A stretch of 64,000 nucleotides of DNA from a virus: the IMG/VR virus record IMGVR_UViG_3300044712_001933, positions 1 to 64,000 of that record, one strand, 5' to 3'. The position numbers and the translations under genes were made by a program. Positions 35,601 through 56,898 of the stretch are shown here, piece by piece; the first letter of the stretch is position 1, and the number at the start of each line of letters is the position of its first letter. Below the pieces are notes generated by a model, which worked only from the letters and a program-made list of their open reading frames with translations, was not told the DNA's origin and ran no database searches.

Positions 35601-36257
35601 CTAAGGAGTCTGGATTGCCTTGTCAAACGGCCAGAGGAGCCGGAAAAGTCGCACCCATACACGGTTATACTTACGCCCCCACAGCGCGCACCATTCAGCT
35701 AGGCACCGACGCTCGCCGCGGAACTCGAAGACGAGATTACGCATGCTCAAACGGTTTGGATGCTGCTTGATTGCCCGAACCGGGGTGGTGAGCATTCGTT
35801 CGGGCGACCAGCCGCGCTTGTACCGGAGTGACAACACCGCCGCAGGGATACCAGTGATACGAGACCACTCAGCCAACGACTTTTTCATGCCCGCATACTC
35901 GACAAAAACAGTCGTCGACCGGTTTAGGTTCTGGGTGCGTCTGTCCGCATAGCGGATGTTCTCGATAACGTAGTTGCCGTCGTTGTCTCGACGGTCGATA
36001 GAAAAACCGTCCGGGACCTCCCCATAGGCATCCAGAAGAGCTTGGGCGAGTTCACAGGGATGGTCGAACTTAGGGTCGACGACGATTCCGCGGCCGCCGT
36101 ACCGGTAATACAGCGGGTCTTTGGGATTGTAGCAACGGCTCCACGCTTTATACGCAGCTTGGTATAGTTTAGTACCGCACAGCCCGTGTTCGCGGCGTTC
36201 GATAGGCCAGCGCTGTTTAGAGCCCGCGCTGGAGGCTATTTCATTGGTATTTTCCAT
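35601..36257 (-). CDS. HNH-type homing endonuclease-like protein
   Basis: 218 aa. Residues about 28-110 match the phage HNH family with the pattern W...RCYNP...YYRYGGRGIVV...GFSIDRRDNDGNYVIENIRYAD...QNLNRS. Two NUMOD-like DNA-binding segments follow (LAEWSRITGIPAAVLSLRYKRGWSPERML and a second, diverged CLAEWCALWG). Free-standing HNH genes often invade sites beside terminase. Here the gene precedes terL by 7 nt. It carries an unusually strong leader: the conserved hairpin, then GGAGG and GATTGTATG. Confidence 0.75.
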   Translation of the reverse strand: MENTNEIASSAGSKQRWPIERREHGLCGTKLYQAAYKAWSRCYNPKDPLYYRYGGRGIVVDPKFDHPCELAQALLDAYGEVPDGFSIDRRDNDGNYVIENIRYADRRTQNLNRSTTVFVEYAGMKKSLAEWSRITGIPAAVLSLRYKRGWSPERMLTTPVRAIKQHPNRLSMRNLVFEFRGERRCLAEWCALWGRKYNRVWVRLFRLLWPFDKAIQTP

Positions 36258-36288
36258 ACAATCACCTCCGTGGGATCTCCCACCCCCA
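36255..36288 (-). promoter_or_regulatory. Conserved hairpin start module before the HNH gene
   Basis: Read on the minus strand: GGGGGTGGGAGATCCCAC (stem GTGGG/CCCAC, loop AGAT), then GGAGGTGATTGTATG. The first 18 bases are identical to the leader of the gene at 54801, and close variants precede genes at 39928 and 47941. Confidence 0.75.
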
Positions 36289-36296
36289 GAAACGCC

Positions 36297-36398
36297 TTAG
36301 TGCGTCAGAAGAATCGCCAGGCAAGAAGCGGCCGCAGCGAGCGCCATGGAAACGACGACGAATTTTAAAACAGGAATTTCAATGAGTTTTCGTTGCAT
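36297..36398 (-). CDS. Small membrane protein, 33 aa
   Basis: Found because a 9-bp hairpin plus GATTATG precedes the ATG directly. Product: MQRKLIEIPVLK, then a hydrophobic span of about 18 residues (FVVVSMALAAAASCLAIL) and a three-residue tail. Single-pass, N-in topology is likely from the basic N-terminus. It precedes the HNH gene on the same strand by 39 nt. No recognised family. Confidence 0.55.
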   Translation of the reverse strand: MQRKLIEIPVLKFVVVSMALAAAASCLAILLTH

Positions 36399-36437
36399 AA
36401 TCTGCCTCGGCAAACCCCAGGAACCCCAGCCGAGGCA
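36399..36437 (-). promoter_or_regulatory. Hairpin abutting a GATTATG start
   Basis: Perfect 9-bp stem TGCCTCGGC/GCCGAGGCA (36403-36411 with 36429-36437), its 3' arm directly followed by GATT and the ATG of the 33-aa membrane-protein gene. Confidence 0.7.
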
Positions 36438-36917
36438 ATGTTTCCCAGGCCCCTATACCCCTGCCCGGGAATAATAATCTTACAGAAGAAGCGCGGGCTA
36501 CGTGTGGGTCTGGATACCCACATTTGTCCCCTGAGCGGGGCTGTCCTGCAACTTAGACGAACGCAGCCTATGTCCTAAGGTGTCGTTAAGAGGCGGCCAT
36601 CACAACCACCCCCACCAAGGAGAGTTTTTCAGGCTCCCCCGACACCTAAAAATACGAGCCGATTGGGGGACTCTCACCCGCTACTGTCTGGGTCGGCCGA
36701 GCAAAGCGGATATCATTTAACCCGGGTTCACGAACCCTTCAGCCCTACTGGATCGGCATAAAAATTGGTTGCGGGAGAGGGATTCGCACCCCCGACCTCG
36801 TGGTTATGAGCCACGCGCGCTGGCTTCTGCGCTATCCCGCACCTCAAAATCAAGCCGCCGAATCAGCCGGCACCTACTAACTGTCACGCATTCGGGCCCT
36901 TAAGCTATCAGCGGCTT
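36438..36917 (-). other. Gene-free stretch with tRNA-sized inverted repeats flanking the tRNA
   Basis: No coding frame is convincing. Besides the tRNA-Met there are three tRNA-sized elements with matching ends: 36578-36647 (AGGTGTCG/CGACACCT), 36658-36757 (GCCGAT/ATCGGC with a T-arm-like GCGGG-TGAGAGT-CCCCC), and 36852-36917 (AAGCCGC/GCGGCTT, inner GCCG-GCTGATT-CGGC). Conserved T-loop bases are missing, so they look like decayed tRNAs. Small hairpins lie at 36497-36516 as well. Confidence 0.45.
36766..36841 (-). tRNA. tRNA-Met (CAU), CCA encoded
   Basis: A 76-nt cloverleaf on the minus strand: acceptor TGCGGGA/TCCCGCA, D stem GCGC/GCGC, anticodon stem CGTGG/CCACG with loop CTCATAA (anticodon CAT at 36806-36808), T arm GGGGG-TGCGAAT-CCCTC, discriminator A and encoded CCA. 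The paired first base speaks for elongator Met or lysidine-type Ile rather than initiator. Confidence 0.9.
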
Positions 36918-38982: not shown

Positions 38983-39363
38983 TCACCTCGCCAATGGTAT
39001 AAACACTTTGGAGGAGTCGGGGTTCACCTGGCTGGCCAGAGAGGGCGTATACCAGTGATTCGGGTCGGGGGGCTCGATCCGTTCCCAGAGAGCCGGGTAT
39101 CGCGTGTGGAACTTCAAATGCTGGCGCGCCGGCTGGACGAGCTTGTATTTGTAGCCTTGGATGTCGACAGCGGTGATAGGCGCCGGGGCAGGCTTCGAAG
39201 AGCATCCAAGCAAAAGTACGAGCATTACGAGTACTGGTACGAGTAACCGGATGAGCTTGCTGCGGATCCACCGGGCTCCGTCGACGACCAGAAGCGCGCC
39301 AGAGATTCCGGCCAGCATCACGTAGTACAGGACGGCGACGAAGAAAGAGACAGCGTGTTTCAT
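38983..39363 (-). CDS. Lipoprotein with N-terminal membrane segment, 126 aa
   Basis: Two hydrophobic stretches (residues about 5-25 and 37-53), the second ending in a lipobox-like LLLGCSS (Cys54), then a soluble Pro-rich tail containing YKLVQPARQHLKFHTRYPALWERIEPP. The lipobox is farther from the N-terminus than usual. An internal start is possible (ATG before VLVLL). Together with neighbouring membrane proteins it may be an outer-membrane spanin-like partner. Its leader has a 7-bp hairpin and CTGATTATG. Confidence 0.55.
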   Translation of the reverse strand: MKHAVSFFVAVLYYVMLAGISGALLVVDGARWIRSKLIRLLVPVLVMLVLLLGCSSKPAPAPITAVDIQGYKYKLVQPARQHLKFHTRYPALWERIEPPDPNHWYTPSLASQVNPDSSKVFIPLAR

Positions 39364-39390
39364 AATCAGAAGAGGGGCTTATGAGCCCCT
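39361..39390 (-). promoter_or_regulatory. Hairpin plus CTGATTATG start module
   Basis: On the minus strand, stem AGGGGCT/AGCCCCT (loop CATA, 39373-39390) is followed by CTTCTGATTATG, the ATG being that of the 126-aa lipoprotein gene. Confidence 0.7.
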
Positions 39391-39397
39391 TGCGGCC

Positions 39398-39928
39398 CTA
39401 GTCGATGTTCGACTGCCCGGGGATGGGATCGTCCAAGTAACCGAAGGACACCCCCCGCACCTTGGCCGACTTAAAGCGGGTAGCACCACGGAGCTGGGGA
39501 TACAGCGCCACAGAGTCGACCCCGATTGCAGAAGCGAAGTCGGACACCGTGGTGAAGATTTCGCCCACTCGTATTGTGGAGGCGATCCTGCGGTCTCCCC
39601 TGGGTATTTTGTAGTCGTCGTAGACATTGTCATCGATGGCGTGGACGATAACCGGCCGCCCCCGCATCCGCCGGCCGTCGGCGGACCTGTCGTTCGGATC
39701 CCAAAAGCGTTCGCTTGCCGGAGACCTGGGGATCGGGATACAGCAGTCCTCTACGAGGGACTTGTTTAGATTGAAGCAGTTGACGAGCCACTGCTTGAGG
39801 ATGCTGGCGTCGGATTCAGAAAACCGAGACGGGATGGAAAGCGCGACGGCCTCACCGACCGGCGTGTTCGTGGTAGTTTCACCGGAAGTTTCCTCCCGGA
39901 CCAGCTGAAGATTTAGTTTGTAAGGCAT
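39398..39928 (-). CDS. Hypothetical protein, 176 aa
   Basis: Mixed alpha/beta, no membrane segment. Residues about 85-110 are Arg/Asp-rich (RFWDPNDRSADGRRMRGRP), and the C-terminus has a helix-turn-helix-like stretch (GEIFTTVSDFASAIGVDSVALYPQL) that loosely recalls NUMOD-type DNA-binding modules. It is the first gene of the leftward run after the gene-free region at 40 kb and carries the conserved hairpin leader. Confidence 0.5.
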   Translation of the reverse strand: MPYKLNLQLVREETSGETTTNTPVGEAVALSIPSRFSESDASILKQWLVNCFNLNKSLVEDCCIPIPRSPASERFWDPNDRSADGRRMRGRPVIVHAIDDNVYDDYKIPRGDRRIASTIRVGEIFTTVSDFASAIGVDSVALYPQLRGATRFKSAKVRGVSFGYLDDPIPGQSNID

Positions 39929-39963
39929 AATCAGCCCCTGTGAGCTCTCTCACCCCCGTTATA
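39926..39963 (-). promoter_or_regulatory. Possible -10 element plus conserved hairpin leader
   Basis: Minus strand: TATAAC (39958-39963), then GGGGGTGAGAGAGCTCAC (stem GTGAG/CTCAC, loop AGAG), then AGGGGCTGATTATG. The stem differs from the copies at 36270 and 54776 by a paired change. A -35 at proper spacing is not convincing. Confidence 0.6.
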
Positions 39964-41340: not shown

Positions 41341-41742
41341 ATGGATAGCCCAACAACGAAAGTTTTACGAAGTCCCGACACTATCTCAGACGACGCCATC
41401 ACCGACGGAGTCCCTCTTGTTTTACCAGGCGACGGAGTCCCTCTTGTTTTACCCGGCGACGGAGTCCCTCAAGCTCCGCACGTTTACGCCGAAACCACCA
41501 CGAAAGCGTGGGACTCGGCCGGGGTTCCTTTAGTGACGCCTCCAGAGTGCGAAGTGGTGCACGGCTACTGTGAGATGTGCGGCACGCCTTTGGGCTCAGA
41601 GGCCCATAAGTATCTCTGTGAGACCCGCGAAGCCCACATTTACAAGGGCGTCATTTACCCCTCCGTGGAGGCCGTGAAAGCCGCCATGGCCCAAGAATGG
41701 ACGCCCACGTATGTCGCCGGAGTTCCTCTGATACCTCAATAA
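41341..41742 (+). CDS. Hypothetical protein with GVPLV repeats and a Cys pair
   Basis: 133 aa. The N-terminal part contains GDGVPLVLP repeats. The middle has CEMCG...YLC, a likely metal-binding knuckle. The pentapeptide GVPL(V/I) recurs near the C-terminus as well. It may be the first gene of the rightward early transcript. Function unknown. Confidence 0.55.
   Translation: MDSPTTKVLRSPDTISDDAITDGVPLVLPGDGVPLVLPGDGVPQAPHVYAETTTKAWDSAGVPLVTPPECEVVHGYCEMCGTPLGSEAHKYLCETREAHIYKGVIYPSVEAVKAAMAQEWTPTYVAGVPLIPQ
41404..41473 (+). repeat. 27-bp minisatellite inside a gene
   Basis: Two near-perfect 27-bp units (41404-41430 and 41431-41457, one base different) plus a partial third, in frame, each encoding DGVPLVLPG. 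Confidence 0.85.
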
Positions 41743-42563: not shown

Positions 42564-42617
42564 GGGCCTTCGGGCCCCATTAGACTATACGACCCCTTTA
42601 GGGGTCCTGATTTTATG
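42564..42617 (+). promoter_or_regulatory. Two hairpins leading to a GATTTTATG start
   Basis: GGGCC-TTCG-GGCCC (42564-42577, a stable UUCG loop closed by C-G) and GACCCC-TTTA-GGGGTC (42591-42606), then CTGATTTT and the ATG of the 103-aa gene at 42615. Confidence 0.7.
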
Positions 42618-42932: not shown

Positions 42933-43054
42933 GGGCGCCTCGCGCGCCCCTTTAGATTCTGCGCAAACTTAATCGAACCATGAAAGCAATGAATCGGGTG
43001 TGCCTGACGGCACACGCTTAAAACTCAAGGGCCGCAAGGCCCCCTTCGATTATG
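42933..43054 (+). promoter_or_regulatory. Leader with three hairpins and a possible 13-aa peptide
   Basis: GGGCGC-CTCGC-GCGCCC (42933-42949), GTGTGCC-TGAC-GGCACAC (42998-43015) and GGGCC-GCAA-GGCCC (43029-43042, GNRA loop), the last followed by CCTTCGATTATG for the gene at 43052. A 13-codon ORF (42980-43021, MKAMNRVCLTAHA) contains the middle hairpin. Confidence 0.65.
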
Positions 43055-44625: not shown

Positions 44626-44716
44626 CATATAACCGCTTAACTGATAGGTAGTTACACAAATTCTTCATTCGGGCTTCGTTTTTTATTTTGACATACAAGC
44701 GGTTATATGTGACACT
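44626..44716 (+). promoter_or_regulatory. Promoter with operator-like inverted repeat
   Basis: TTGACA at 44688-44693 with GACACT 17 nt on. AAGCGGTTATATG (44697-44709) fills the spacer, and its exact inverse CATATAACCGCTT sits at 44626-44638. The same spacer motif, with one change, lies in the promoter at 53591. A dimeric repressor site is likely. Confidence 0.7.
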
Positions 44717-44725
44717 GTAGCCACG

Positions 44726-45001
44726 ATGAACACGACAACAGCAACTACGACGGCGACTAAGCCGACCTATTACGAGACCTACCTCCGGCTGATAAAGCAG
44801 GTCCGGGGCGACAAGCGGATCGACAGGATTTTTTGCAGCGCTGAGGAGAATGCAGCGGACTCGGCTCGTGAAGATGGGTTCAAGCCATACAGCGAGGAGT
44901 ATTATTCGACCCTGCTGGGCAGCCTATCCTCGGCCGCGGAAGCATACGAGGATGTCGCCTACGCCAGCAAATGGTTTGCTCGTCGCGGATATCGCATTTA
45001 G
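44726..45001 (+). CDS. Hypothetical protein, 91 aa
   Basis: A Thr/Ala-rich start (MNTTTATTTATKPTYY), then a helical body with ERIF-like pattern (KRIDRIFCSAEENAADSAREDGF) and C-terminal YASKWFARRGYRI. The ATG lies 9 nt after the -10 box, so the message would be nearly leaderless. Its direct link to an operator-bearing promoter makes it a candidate immediate-early gene. Function unknown. Confidence 0.55.
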   Translation: MNTTTATTTATKPTYYETYLRLIKQVRGDKRIDRIFCSAEENAADSAREDGFKPYSEEYYSTLLGSLSSAAEAYEDVAYASKWFARRGYRI

Positions 45002-45006
45002 TCGAA

Positions 45007-45085
45007 ACGGTCTTCGGACCGTCTGATCCGGCTGGCCTCGGATCACTGATGAGACAGGCCAAAATGTTTACAAACAAGATTTATG
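45007..45085 (+). promoter_or_regulatory. Two hairpins and GATTTATG start context
   Basis: ACGGTC-TTCG-GACCGT (45007-45022, UUCG loop) and GATCCG/CGGATC (45025-45044, 8-nt loop). The ATG at 45083 has the context AAGATTTATG. Confidence 0.6.
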
Positions 45086-46881: not shown

Positions 46882-46909
46882 GGGCGCTTCGGCGCCCTCC
46901 TTGATTATG
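46882..46909 (+). promoter_or_regulatory. UUCG hairpin plus TTGATTATG start module
   Basis: GGGCGC-TTCG-GCGCCC (46882-46897) followed by TCCTTGATTATG, whose ATG opens the gene at 46907. No SD-like purine run is present. Confidence 0.75.
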
Positions 46910-47863: not shown

Positions 47864-47943
47864 TTGACTTTGATACGGGGTTCCTTTAAGATTGATCTCC
47901 GTAATATAGGGAGTGGCTGAAATCGCCACAGGGGTTGATTATG
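47864..47943 (+). promoter_or_regulatory. Promoter followed by conserved hairpin leader
   Basis: TTGACT (47864-47869) and TAAGAT (47887-47892), 17-nt spacing. The leader then has GTGGC/GCCAC (47913-47929, 7-nt loop) and AGGGGTTGATTATG. The stem is a third paired variant of the module at 54771 and 39926. Confidence 0.7.
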
Positions 47944-48660: not shown

Positions 48661-48913
48661 GGAGGAGCGGACTGACTCCCGCGCCGCTCCTCCCTTCTCC
48701 TTCCTTTTGATTATGCTCCCCGTAAGGGGTTCGATTATGACGTGCCCACAGGGCGCCTGATTATCCTCGAGGCGGCTTCGCCAAAAGTGGCCGTCGGGAC
48801 GGCAAGCGCATGAGTGCCGAATAACCTGCGCCGGGCGTGTATGAGTATAAAATTCGCTCAGGACATGCCCCTGTGATTGTCAGTTTAAACCATAAACTCT
48901 AAATCAAATATCT
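48661..48913 (+). other. Hairpin array with repeated GATTAT boxes and no real gene
   Basis: First a 10-bp hairpin GGAGGAGCGG/CCGCTCCTCC (48661-48693, terminator-like, T/C-rich tail). Then GATTATG at 48709, CCCC-GTAA-GGGG, GATTATG at 48733, GCCC-ACA-GGGC, GATTATC at 48759, GGCG-GCTT-CGCC, a GCCGT/ACGGC stem, and an 8-bp stem (48834-48841 with 48859-48866) ending CCCCTGTGATT. Only a 15-codon reading frame occurs. Confidence 0.6.
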
Positions 48914-49772: not shown

Positions 49773-49805
49773 TAGAGGGTAGGACCGTATTTGTCCTACC
49801 CTCTA
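49773..49805. terminator. Strong terminator between early genes and integrase block
   Basis: Perfect 13-bp stem starting TAGAGGGTAGGAC, loop CGTATTT. On the minus strand it is followed by GATTTTTTC then seven T, so it ends the integrase transcript. The plus side has a weaker T-rich tail and may stop the 275-aa gene transcript. Confidence 0.85.
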
Positions 49806-49993
49806 TGGTATAGTCGATTTTACAGAATGAAATCGTGCCCTGAAATAGTTGGAGACAGTGTAGGGAGATCCCCTACAAAAATTGGGCTTGCGCGAGGGCA
49901 GGGGGGGGCATGCTACCAGGGAAATCCCGAGTGGATTATTAGTACTTCTTCCTTGTCGCATGTACCAAACTAAAATAATTAAAAAGTTGAAAA

Positions 49994-53582: not shown

Positions 53583-53590
53583 GAAATATT

Positions 53591-53619
53591 TTGACATATA
53601 AGCGGATATATGAGATTAT
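53591..53619 (+). promoter_or_regulatory. Promoter with the shared operator motif
   Basis: TTGACA (53591-53596), 17-nt spacer holding AAGCGGATATATG (53600-53612), then GATTAT (53614-53619). It matches the 44688 promoter over TTGACATA(C/T)AAGCGG(A/T)TATATG. It serves the RNA motif, tRNA-like element and genes from 54021. Confidence 0.75.
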
Positions 53620-53725
53620 GTTTGCACGATGACAGTCTCACTGGTGAGAGCGAACCCGGTCCTCGGATAAACTCTCCCAGAAAACAAGGAGGGGCTGGCT
53701 CGGTTGAACTCTTGATGTCGCGTGA

Positions 53726-54770: not shown

Positions 54771-54803
54771 CGGGGGTGGGAGATCCCACAGGGGCTGATT
54801 ATG
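54771..54803 (+). promoter_or_regulatory. Conserved hairpin start module
   Basis: GGGGGTGGGAGATCCCAC (stem GTGGG/CCCAC, loop AGAT) and AGGGGCTGATTATG, the ATG at 54801. The first 18 bases are identical to the leader at 36270 on the other strand. Confidence 0.8.
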
Positions 54804-55066: not shown

Positions 55067-55117
55067 CGAGGCTTCTGCCTCGTGGGGGATGTCTTCCTTT
55101 CCATCCCCCAGATTATG
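55067..55117 (+). promoter_or_regulatory. Two hairpins plus GATTATG
   Basis: CGAGGC-TTCT-GCCTCG (55067-55082) and GGGGGATG/CATCCCCC (55084-55109, 10-nt loop), followed by AGATTATG opening the gene at 55115. Confidence 0.75.
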
Positions 55118-55471: not shown

Positions 55472-56898
55472 ACACTGCCGGCCTTCTCCCATACCAGGTC
55501 CCCCACGTCGACAAGCTCCTGCGCGTCCTGCAGTCCAATAAGGCGGCGCTGGACGGATCCGACACGGGCACCGGTAAGACGTTCACCGCGCTGGCGACGG
55601 CCCGGGCCCTCGGCATAAAGCCGTTTGTGATCACCCCGCTGGTCACGGTGCCGTCCTGGCTGCGCGCCTCGGAGTCCCTCCAGTGGCCGATCCAGGTCAC
55701 GAACTACGAAAAGGCCCGGGGGCCTGGCTTTCACACCGGTCCGGATGGCAAGCGCGCGCCCCTCTCTGTCAGCCCCTGGGGCTTCGAACGCCCAGCCGGC
55801 GCTGGCTCGCAGTGGGTATGGAATAACAGCTACCGGATGCTGATCTTCGACGAAGTCGACCGGTGCTCGGGGTCTACTTCGCTGAATTCCAAGCTGCTCA
55901 TTGCCGCAAAGCGCCAGGCGCAGCACGTCCTGACGCTCTCGGCTACGGCCGCGGAGTCCCCCTTGCAATTAAAAGCGCTCGGATACGCCCTGGGGCTCCA
56001 CAATCTCAAATCCTGGCCGCAGTGGCTCCTGCGCCACGGATGCACGCCCGGAATCTTTGGTGGGTATGAGTTTTCTAAAAACTCGGATAAGCAGCTGGCC
56101 GCCATGGAAAAACTCCACCGGCAAATCTTCGAAAGCCGCGGCGCCCGGATGCGCCGAAAAGAAATCCCGGGGTTCCCCAAGTCCACCCTGGGCGTCAAGC
56201 TGGTGCAGTTGGAAGAGAGCGCCACTGATAAGGCTGACGAACTCAGCAAATCCCTCGAGGCGGCCTATCTGCACCGGATGGAGCAGGCGGACGAAGCCCG
56301 CCGCCAGGCTGAGGAAGAGAAAGAACGCTGCATCGCTGAGGGCATCGAATACAAGGGCGGAGGCGTCCTGACCGAGATCCTGCGCATTCAGCAGGGGCTC
56401 GAGATGCTCCTGGTGGCGCCGCTCCTCGAGCTCGCGCTGCAGTATTCAAAAACGACCAAAGTGGCCATTTTTGTAAACTTCCTCGAGACCGTGGACAAGC
56501 TGGCTGTCGCTCTTAGCGACTTAAAAATCGGCGTCATCACCGGGCAGTATAACGGCTTTGGTCCGTGGAAGCCCGCGGCGCGCCAGGACGTGGCTGATGC
56601 CTTCCAGCGTAACGAGCTCGAAGTCGTCATCGTGTCCAGGGCCGGCGGCGTGGGGCTCAGCCTGCATGACCCCAAAGGGGAAGCGGAGCGCACCAGCCTC
56701 ATTTGCCCCCAATACTCCGCCCGTGCGATCAAACAAGTCCTCGGCCGGGTGGACCGTGCCGGCGGCGCCTACTCCCAACAGTTTTTCGTTTACATTTTTA
56801 ATAGCAAACAGCGCGAAATAGCCTTGACACTAGAGAAGAAATTGAATAATCTCGATATGCTAAATGATCGGGAACTCTACGGCTCGGTGATCCAATAA
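55468..56898 (+). CDS. SNF2-type DNA helicase
   Basis: 476 aa from GTG at 55468, which overlaps the previous stop (GTGA) and has GGAGG upstream. Superfamily 2 motifs are in order: DTGTGKT (I, residues 32-38), ITPLVTVPSW (Ia), LIFDEVD (II), TLSATAA (III), VAIFVNFLETVD (IV), VSRAGGVGLSL (V) and QVLGRVDRAG (VI). A helical region with coiled coil lies between the lobes (residues about 250-290). Probably a replication-recombination helicase or remodeller. Confidence 0.85.
   Translation: MNTAGLLPYQVPHVDKLLRVLQSNKAALDGSDTGTGKTFTALATARALGIKPFVITPLVTVPSWLRASESLQWPIQVTNYEKARGPGFHTGPDGKRAPLSVSPWGFERPAGAGSQWVWNNSYRMLIFDEVDRCSGSTSLNSKLLIAAKRQAQHVLTLSATAAESPLQLKALGYALGLHNLKSWPQWLLRHGCTPGIFGGYEFSKNSDKQLAAMEKLHRQIFESRGARMRRKEIPGFPKSTLGVKLVQLEESATDKADELSKSLEAAYLHRMEQADEARRQAEEEKERCIAEGIEYKGGGVLTEILRIQQGLEMLLVAPLLELALQYSKTTKVAIFVNFLETVDKLAVALSDLKIGVITGQYNGFGPWKPAARQDVADAFQRNELEVVIVSRAGGVGLSLHDPKGEAERTSLICPQYSARAIKQVLGRVDRAGGAYSQQFFVYIFNSKQREIALTLEKKLNNLDMLNDRELYGSVIQ

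Follow-up and report, generated by a model that had tools for sequence, protein, structure and literature searches.

What is the short hairpin-bearing leader that stands ahead of several unrelated genes in this viral genome, and does it act as RNA or as DNA? The source is a 69,605-bp IMG/VR virus record, of which the window covers 64 kb. The window encodes a terminase large subunit, an SU10-type portal protein, a family A DNA polymerase, a helicase and a primase-like protein. No close isolate is available: the best identity of the terminase to GenBank phages is about 23-25%, and phage isolates reach only about 23-29% in terminase or polymerase. The nearest relatives, seven at 58-60% identity, came from an IMG/VR scan with the terminase; IMG/VR scans with the primase and with a 447-aa protein recovered no relative. 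Alignment of the terminase against 84,980 bacterial and archaeal genomes gave no match and no host signal. Gene starts were called with an in-house finder, four starts being corrected or added by hand, and many of those used are the earliest possible start of their open reading frame.

The long form of the leader occurs four times, on both strands and ahead of unrelated genes, at the positions given by an earlier, sequence-only reading (36255 and 39926 on the minus strand, 47913 and 54771 on the plus strand):

54772-54803, plus strand: copy 54771, full sequence GGGGGTGGGAGATCCCACAGGGGCTGATTATG; GGGGG, hairpin GTGGG-AGAT-CCCAC at 54776-54789, extended Shine-Dalgarno sequence (SD) AGGGGCTGATT at 54790-54800, ATG at 54801 of an 87-aa protein.
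36255-36287, minus strand: copy 36255, full sequence GGGGGTGGGAGATCCCACGGAGGTGATTGTATG; hairpin GTGGG-AGAT-CCCAC at 36270-36283, extended SD GGAGGTGATT, ATG at 36257 of an HNH endonuclease gene.
39926-39958, minus strand: copy 39926, full sequence GGGGGTGAGAGAGCTCACAGGGGCTGATTATG; hairpin GTGAG-AGAG-CTCAC at 39940-39953, extended SD AGGGGCTGATT, ATG at 39928 of a 176-aa protein.
47910-47943, plus strand: copy 47913, full sequence GGGAGTGGCTGAAATCGCCACAGGGGTTGATTATG; hairpin GTGGC-TGAAATC-GCCAC at 47913-47929, linker AGGGGTTGATT, ATG at 47941 of a 233-aa protein.

The stems are those reported before, GTGGG/CCCAC (twice), GTGAG/CTCAC and GTGGC/GCCAC. In every long form the 5-bp stem lies 0 nt from a purine-rich SD, which is followed by a TGATT-type linker and the ATG; by inspection, the start contexts read AGGGGYTGATTATG or GGAGGTGATTGTATG. 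The four copies are not all alike: copy 47913 has a loop of 7 nt rather than 4 and GGGAG rather than GGGGG. Nor is the sequence before the ATG shared throughout, as copy 36255 has GGAGGTGATTGT-ATG instead of AGGGGNTGATT-ATG. The 18-nt identity between 36287 (minus) and 54772 (plus), about 18.5 kb apart, is exact. The two genes behind this pair had been described as an HNH gene and a gene for a basic protein; the former assignment is confirmed (PHROG 3377, E 1e-40), and the partner is a small protein without an assignment.

A sigma70-like promoter, TTGACT-17-TAAGAT, is located at 47864-47892, just 5' of copy 47913, and none was found near the other three copies. Promoters of a T7-type RNA polymerase at GGGAG were also considered; a PF00940 search gave no match, but its control likewise gave none anywhere, and the negative carries little weight. 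Elsewhere on the plus strand, two 46-nt stretches (44684-44729 and 53587-53632), 80% identical, contain TTGACA-17-TATATG-like promoters, possibly the main early promoters. Searching the window with Rfam returned only a tRNA and a type II hammerhead ribozyme above the gathering score, neither of them at a leader. The ribozyme (45000-45063, plus, 48 bits, above gathering) ends some 20 nt short of the start of ORF 45083, and by self-cleavage it could determine where that mRNA begins. Between 53774 and 53958 (plus) lie two tRNA-like halves with about 112 nt inserted at the anticodon arm; the tRNA model scores 23.6 bits, under the gathering threshold. There is no match to a group I intron, and the element may be a tRNA carrying a small intron or one that is broken. 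A tRNA-Met(CAT) followed by about 200 nt of structured-looking non-coding sequence occupies 36560-36841 (minus). Three 27-nt tandem units (ACGGAGTCCCTCTTG...) lie within ORF 41341 at 41401-41473 (plus), with a related 19-mer at 55947.

How unusual is the arrangement? We scanned for a perfect 5-bp stem with a loop of 4-7 nt, ending exactly at RGRGG, then N4-8 and ATG. This pattern was defined after the copies had been seen, and the counts therefore describe rarity rather than serve as a blind test. The 69.6-kb genome contains four units, the four reported copies and no others, and 60 order-1 simulated genomes contain 0.2 on average and 2 at most. The same scan found none in nine related phage genomes or fragments and three in 1.84 Mb of other viral loci. 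Exact-pattern searches of IMG/VR yielded 9 hits for CACAGGGGNTGATTATG and 60 for GTGNGAGANCNCACNGNGG, which were chance or in-gene matches, none with the full unit. The leader is absent in all relatives with 58-60% identical terminases; conservation across related phages was not seen among the nine relatives, all of them distant.

The single-stranded part of the leader has a simple explanation. In three copies the linker AGGGG-Y-TGATT pairs at 10 of 11 nt with the 16S rRNA 3' end GGAUCACCUCC (-10.6 kcal/mol), and in copy 36255 the GGAGGTGATT forms 10 contiguous pairs (-17.8 kcal/mol), compared with a median of -5.3 kcal/mol at other starts in the genome; these energies refer to the canonical bacterial consensus 3' end, which may differ from that of the host. 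With this canonical 16S, all four long forms place the complementarity at a functional spacing from the ATG. The conserved linker, which had been read as a piece of the structured leader, is thus largely accounted for as an extended Shine-Dalgarno sequence.

Is the hairpin itself maintained? Among the five stem pairs of the four copies, three are invariant and two are changed on both sides (G-C to A-U in copy 39926, G-C to C-G in copy 47913). All cells of the stem alignment are paired, and all slid registers score worse. From such paired changes it had been concluded that RNA structure is kept. The double changes in two of five pairs stand, but an equal score arises in 26 of 500 shuffles of the four sequences. 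Two double-change events in a set of four sequences point to a paired constraint without establishing one. In a 120-nt context, the predicted stem probability is 0.90 for copy 54771, 0.98 for 36255, 0.31 for 39926 and 0.98 for 47913; the marginal value for 39926 counts against a translation-start module. With 75 nt of context, copy 54771 is predicted to fold in a competing register (stem probability 0.11), which does not prevail at 120 nt. Folding z-scores of the leaders are weak (-0.8 to -2.0), the energies being slightly better than those of shuffles. The SD is often predicted to pair with early codons, no more so than in codon-shuffled controls, and an exposed SD gains no support from these predictions. 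We rejected a switch based on sequestration of the SD by early codons, as predicted opening energies do not differ from those of codon shuffles.

The paired changes do not discriminate between RNA hairpin and DNA dyad, because a palindrome bound by a dimer would give the same pattern. A dimeric regulator might then bind the palindromes as operators or as parts of promoters, with the paired changes reflecting dyad symmetry. GTGRG-N4-CYCAC is a perfect dyad, on which dimers would likewise impose symmetric changes, and the ESAS repeats of cluster K phages contain promoter-like hexamers (PMC11373665). In addition, a third GGGAGATCCC hairpin, common to two leaders, occurs at 49863 in intergenic sequence away from any start codon, an occurrence that counts against a translation-start module. 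Around it, at 49773-49877 (plus), a 13-bp hairpin is followed by TGTAGGG-AGATC-CCCTACA inside a long non-coding stretch. Several features do not fit a DNA site: the half-sites are unequal (GTGGG, GTGAG, GTGGC), the site always abuts the SD in a single orientation relative to the gene, and three of the four copies lack a nearby promoter. We consider such a site a slim prospect, and what weighs most against it comes from the start sites of other genes.

No NNNNATG word is more enriched in the genome than GATTATG (20 occurrences versus 4.3 expected from dinucleotides), which is found 0-5 times in relatives. A perfect hairpin ends 3-12 nt upstream at 8 of 11 GATT-ATG gene starts, compared with 6.1% of all positions (binomial P 3e-8). 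At other starts the figure is 5/53, and three of these five have a slightly displaced GATT. When the three GATT-ATG long-form copies of the original finding are set aside, a hairpin remains at 5 of 8 GATT-ATG starts. Relatives have intergenic hairpins in comparable numbers, but these are not associated with starts, and no excess of start-adjacent hairpins is seen. The short forms and one variant are:

43029-43054, plus strand: GGGCC-GCAA-GGCCC, linker CCTTCGATT, ATG at 43052 of the 447-aa protein; no clear SD.
46882-46909, plus strand: GGGCGC-TTCG-GCGCCC, linker TCCTTGATT, ATG at 46907 of a 230-aa protein; no clear SD.
39361-39390, minus strand: AGGGGCT-CATA-AGCCCCT, linker CTTCTGATT, ATG at 39363 of a 126-aa protein; no clear SD.
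42591-42617, plus strand: GACCCC-TTTA-GGGGTC, linker CTGATTTT, ATG at 42615 of a 103-aa protein; AGGGG sits within the 3' arm of the hairpin.
55083-55117, plus strand: TGGGGGATG-TCTTCCTTTC-CATCCCCCA, linker GATT, ATG at 55115 of a 118-aa DUF4406/nucleoside deoxyribosyltransferase-like protein, whose family match from residue 4 supports the start.
36396-36437, minus strand: TGCCTCGGC-17 nt-GCCGAGGCA, linker GATT, ATG at 36398 of a 33-codon ORF directly upstream of leader copy 36255.
59672-59701, plus strand (variant): GGGGCC-GCCA-GGCCCC, linker TGTGATTATAT, ATG at 59699 of a 715-aa primase/DUF5906 protein.

Except among the long forms, which are related, and in a few pieces common to short forms, the start-adjacent hairpins differ in sequence. 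Hairpins that keep their place and mostly not their sequence fit a conserved structure rather than a common DNA-binding protein; they are the best argument for RNA structure over a DNA site, and we favor RNA structure on this comparison of start sites. In related phages (L101:9251-9291, plus; also G006 and G007), the 513-aa terminase gene lacks a clear SD and starts 9-10 nt past a strong stem whose tail is rich in T, which may be a distant counterpart of the short forms.

The same data bear on whether the hairpin has any function. One strong ribosome-binding site might have been duplicated recently, with the hairpin as a functionless passenger. The 18-nt identity of two copies would be expected from this, the 16S complementarity alone explains the conserved linker, and there are few changes on which to judge. 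Yet copy 47913 has diverged in the loop and 5' flank while keeping all five pairs, and mostly unrelated hairpins hold the same place at GATT-ATG genes far above background. A functionless passenger is therefore improbable in our judgment.

Start regions also appear to be shared beyond the long forms. A 28-nt stretch is 86% identical between 43039 and 46894, across the starts of genes 43052 and 46907. Protein comparison of genes that share leaders or start regions showed no relatedness in the pairs tested, which excludes paralogy as the cause of common leaders for these pairs. At 48709-48765 (plus), two GATTATG and one GATTATC follow one another about 24-26 nt apart with no gene after them; the later two have small hairpins ahead, and the group resembles start-module remnants. 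The near-identical leaders, the similar 28-nt start regions and these gene-less remnants suggest, at the level of sequence, that modules were copied or left behind in the exchange of small genes.

A shuffling module could also carry stem-loops of another kind, namely terminators, attenuators or RNA-processing sites resembling the promoter-early stem-loops (PeSLs) of T4-type phages, whose proximity to starts would follow from small gaps between genes. Weak terminator scores with pyrimidine tails for several short forms (39373-39390, minus; 42591-42606; 42933-42949) agree with this, as do the start regions common to unrelated genes and the gene-less copies. However, a terminator 5-12 nt ahead of an ATG would silence its own gene absent an intervening promoter, and a sigma70-like promoter is found near copy 47913 only. 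Furthermore, no U tract follows the long-form stems, and the comparable intergenic hairpins of relatives are not start-associated. We regard this explanation as unlikely.

Presence, position, pairing potential, enrichment and the unrelatedness of the downstream genes are all supported by the sequence. Based on these observations, we suggest, with roughly even confidence, that the leaders are RNA-level translation-start modules, composed of a hairpin and an extended SD, that are copied between genes. In the long form, a short stable hairpin would end where the extended SD begins, and the AUG would follow directly after a linker, AGGGG-Y-TGATT or GGAGGTGATT, that pairs with about 10 nt of the 16S rRNA 3' end. 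We infer that the hairpin forms in vivo and affects translation: it would keep upstream mRNA of polycistronic transcripts from pairing with the ribosome-binding site and so delimit the start of each gene, and may guard the message on its 5' side. Because zero nucleotides separate stem and SD, the flush hairpin may also stack on the SD/anti-SD helix. Each gene would bring its own ribosome landing pad regardless of the sequence upstream, and the module would be copied among genes as the small-gene region rearranges.

Since the short forms lack a good SD, a single mechanism may not suit all forms. A broader, doubtful version is a structure-based start syntax of hairpin, N4-12 including GATT, and AUG, in which the hairpin helps to place the 30S subunit. 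The long-form hairpin would stack on the extended SD, and the short-form hairpin would stand in for a good one. If true, about a dozen genes would carry one initiation signal set by the shape of the RNA and not by its sequence. A search of the genome for a phage translation factor found no S21 or S1 domain.

Proteins may also read such sites. T4 RegA, gp43 and the MS2 coat protein are repressors that bind start-site RNA, and an RNA-binding translational repressor of this phage, on the hairpin and AUG, could turn early genes off together. One start-site element ahead of several unrelated genes on both strands would suit an operator. RegA targets overlap the AUG and can read AUUAUG, which is near GAUUAUG, and in T4 the operator of gene 43 includes a hairpin upstream (PMC3014915). 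But RegA sites are without structure (PMC3014915), and a search of the genome for PF01818, the RegA family, gave no match at E 1. Loops and stems vary and the short-form hairpins share little, leaving not much beyond GATT-AUG to be read. A repressor operator thus has a fairly low probability, and the translation-start module remains our preferred interpretation.

Compared with known systems, the leaders resemble RegA targets in being start-site RNA elements common to many phage genes, and the gene 43 operator in having a hairpin upstream of the start. Unlike them, RegA targets are unstructured and A+U rich, with no RegA homologue in this genome, and the gene 43 operator has a loop conserved between T4 and RB69 whereas the leader loops vary (PMC3014915). 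The PeSLs of T4-type phages, as described in PMC4503421 (Arbiol 2010; Comeau 2014), consist of an early promoter and a terminator-like stem-loop in intergenic regions. They too are stem-loop modules repeated among small early genes with signs of movement between unrelated genes; in contrast, the leader stem leads directly into an SD and start codon, has promoter-like hexamers at 47913 only and has no U tract. The nearest known kind is the SAS/ESAS repeats of cluster K and EF actinophages, and the leaders are most likely a variant among such phage start-associated repeats. In cluster K mycobacteriophages, SAS/ESAS lie at the ribosome-binding sites of non-structural genes (PMC3203893), and Microbacterium cluster EF phages also carry repeats of this type (PMC7302621). 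Both they and the leaders occupy the ribosome-binding position within about 3-9 nt of the start, ahead of unrelated non-structural genes; both have partial 16S complementarity and an extended class with a further conserved element upstream, in cluster K an inverted repeat. The consensus is GGGATAGGAGCCC or GGGAAAGGACCCC there and AGGGGYTGATT-ATG here, and the leaders do not match the 13-bp cluster K SAS consensus GGGATAGGAGCCC, which tolerates at most two deviations (PMC3203893). The cluster K ESAS is an imperfect 17-bp inverted repeat (PMC3203893) with SigA-like -35/-10 promoter hexamers (PMC11373665), and Pope and colleagues found RNA pairing unsupported by the departures in the inverted repeats (PMC3203893). 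The leaders instead have a perfect 5-bp stem flush with the SD, keep their pairing and are mostly promoter-free. As consensus, stem geometry, promoter content and conservation disagree, we do not file them as SAS. To our knowledge, phage start-associated repeats have had no assigned mechanism since 2011. The leaders would be an independent, unrelated case of a start-associated repeat, with a short perfect stem abutting the SD and paired substitutions, and they sharpen a loosely defined motif into a hypothesis open to testing, in which the position of the stem, not its sequence, matters for initiation or for insulation of the ribosome-binding site in polycistronic phage mRNA.
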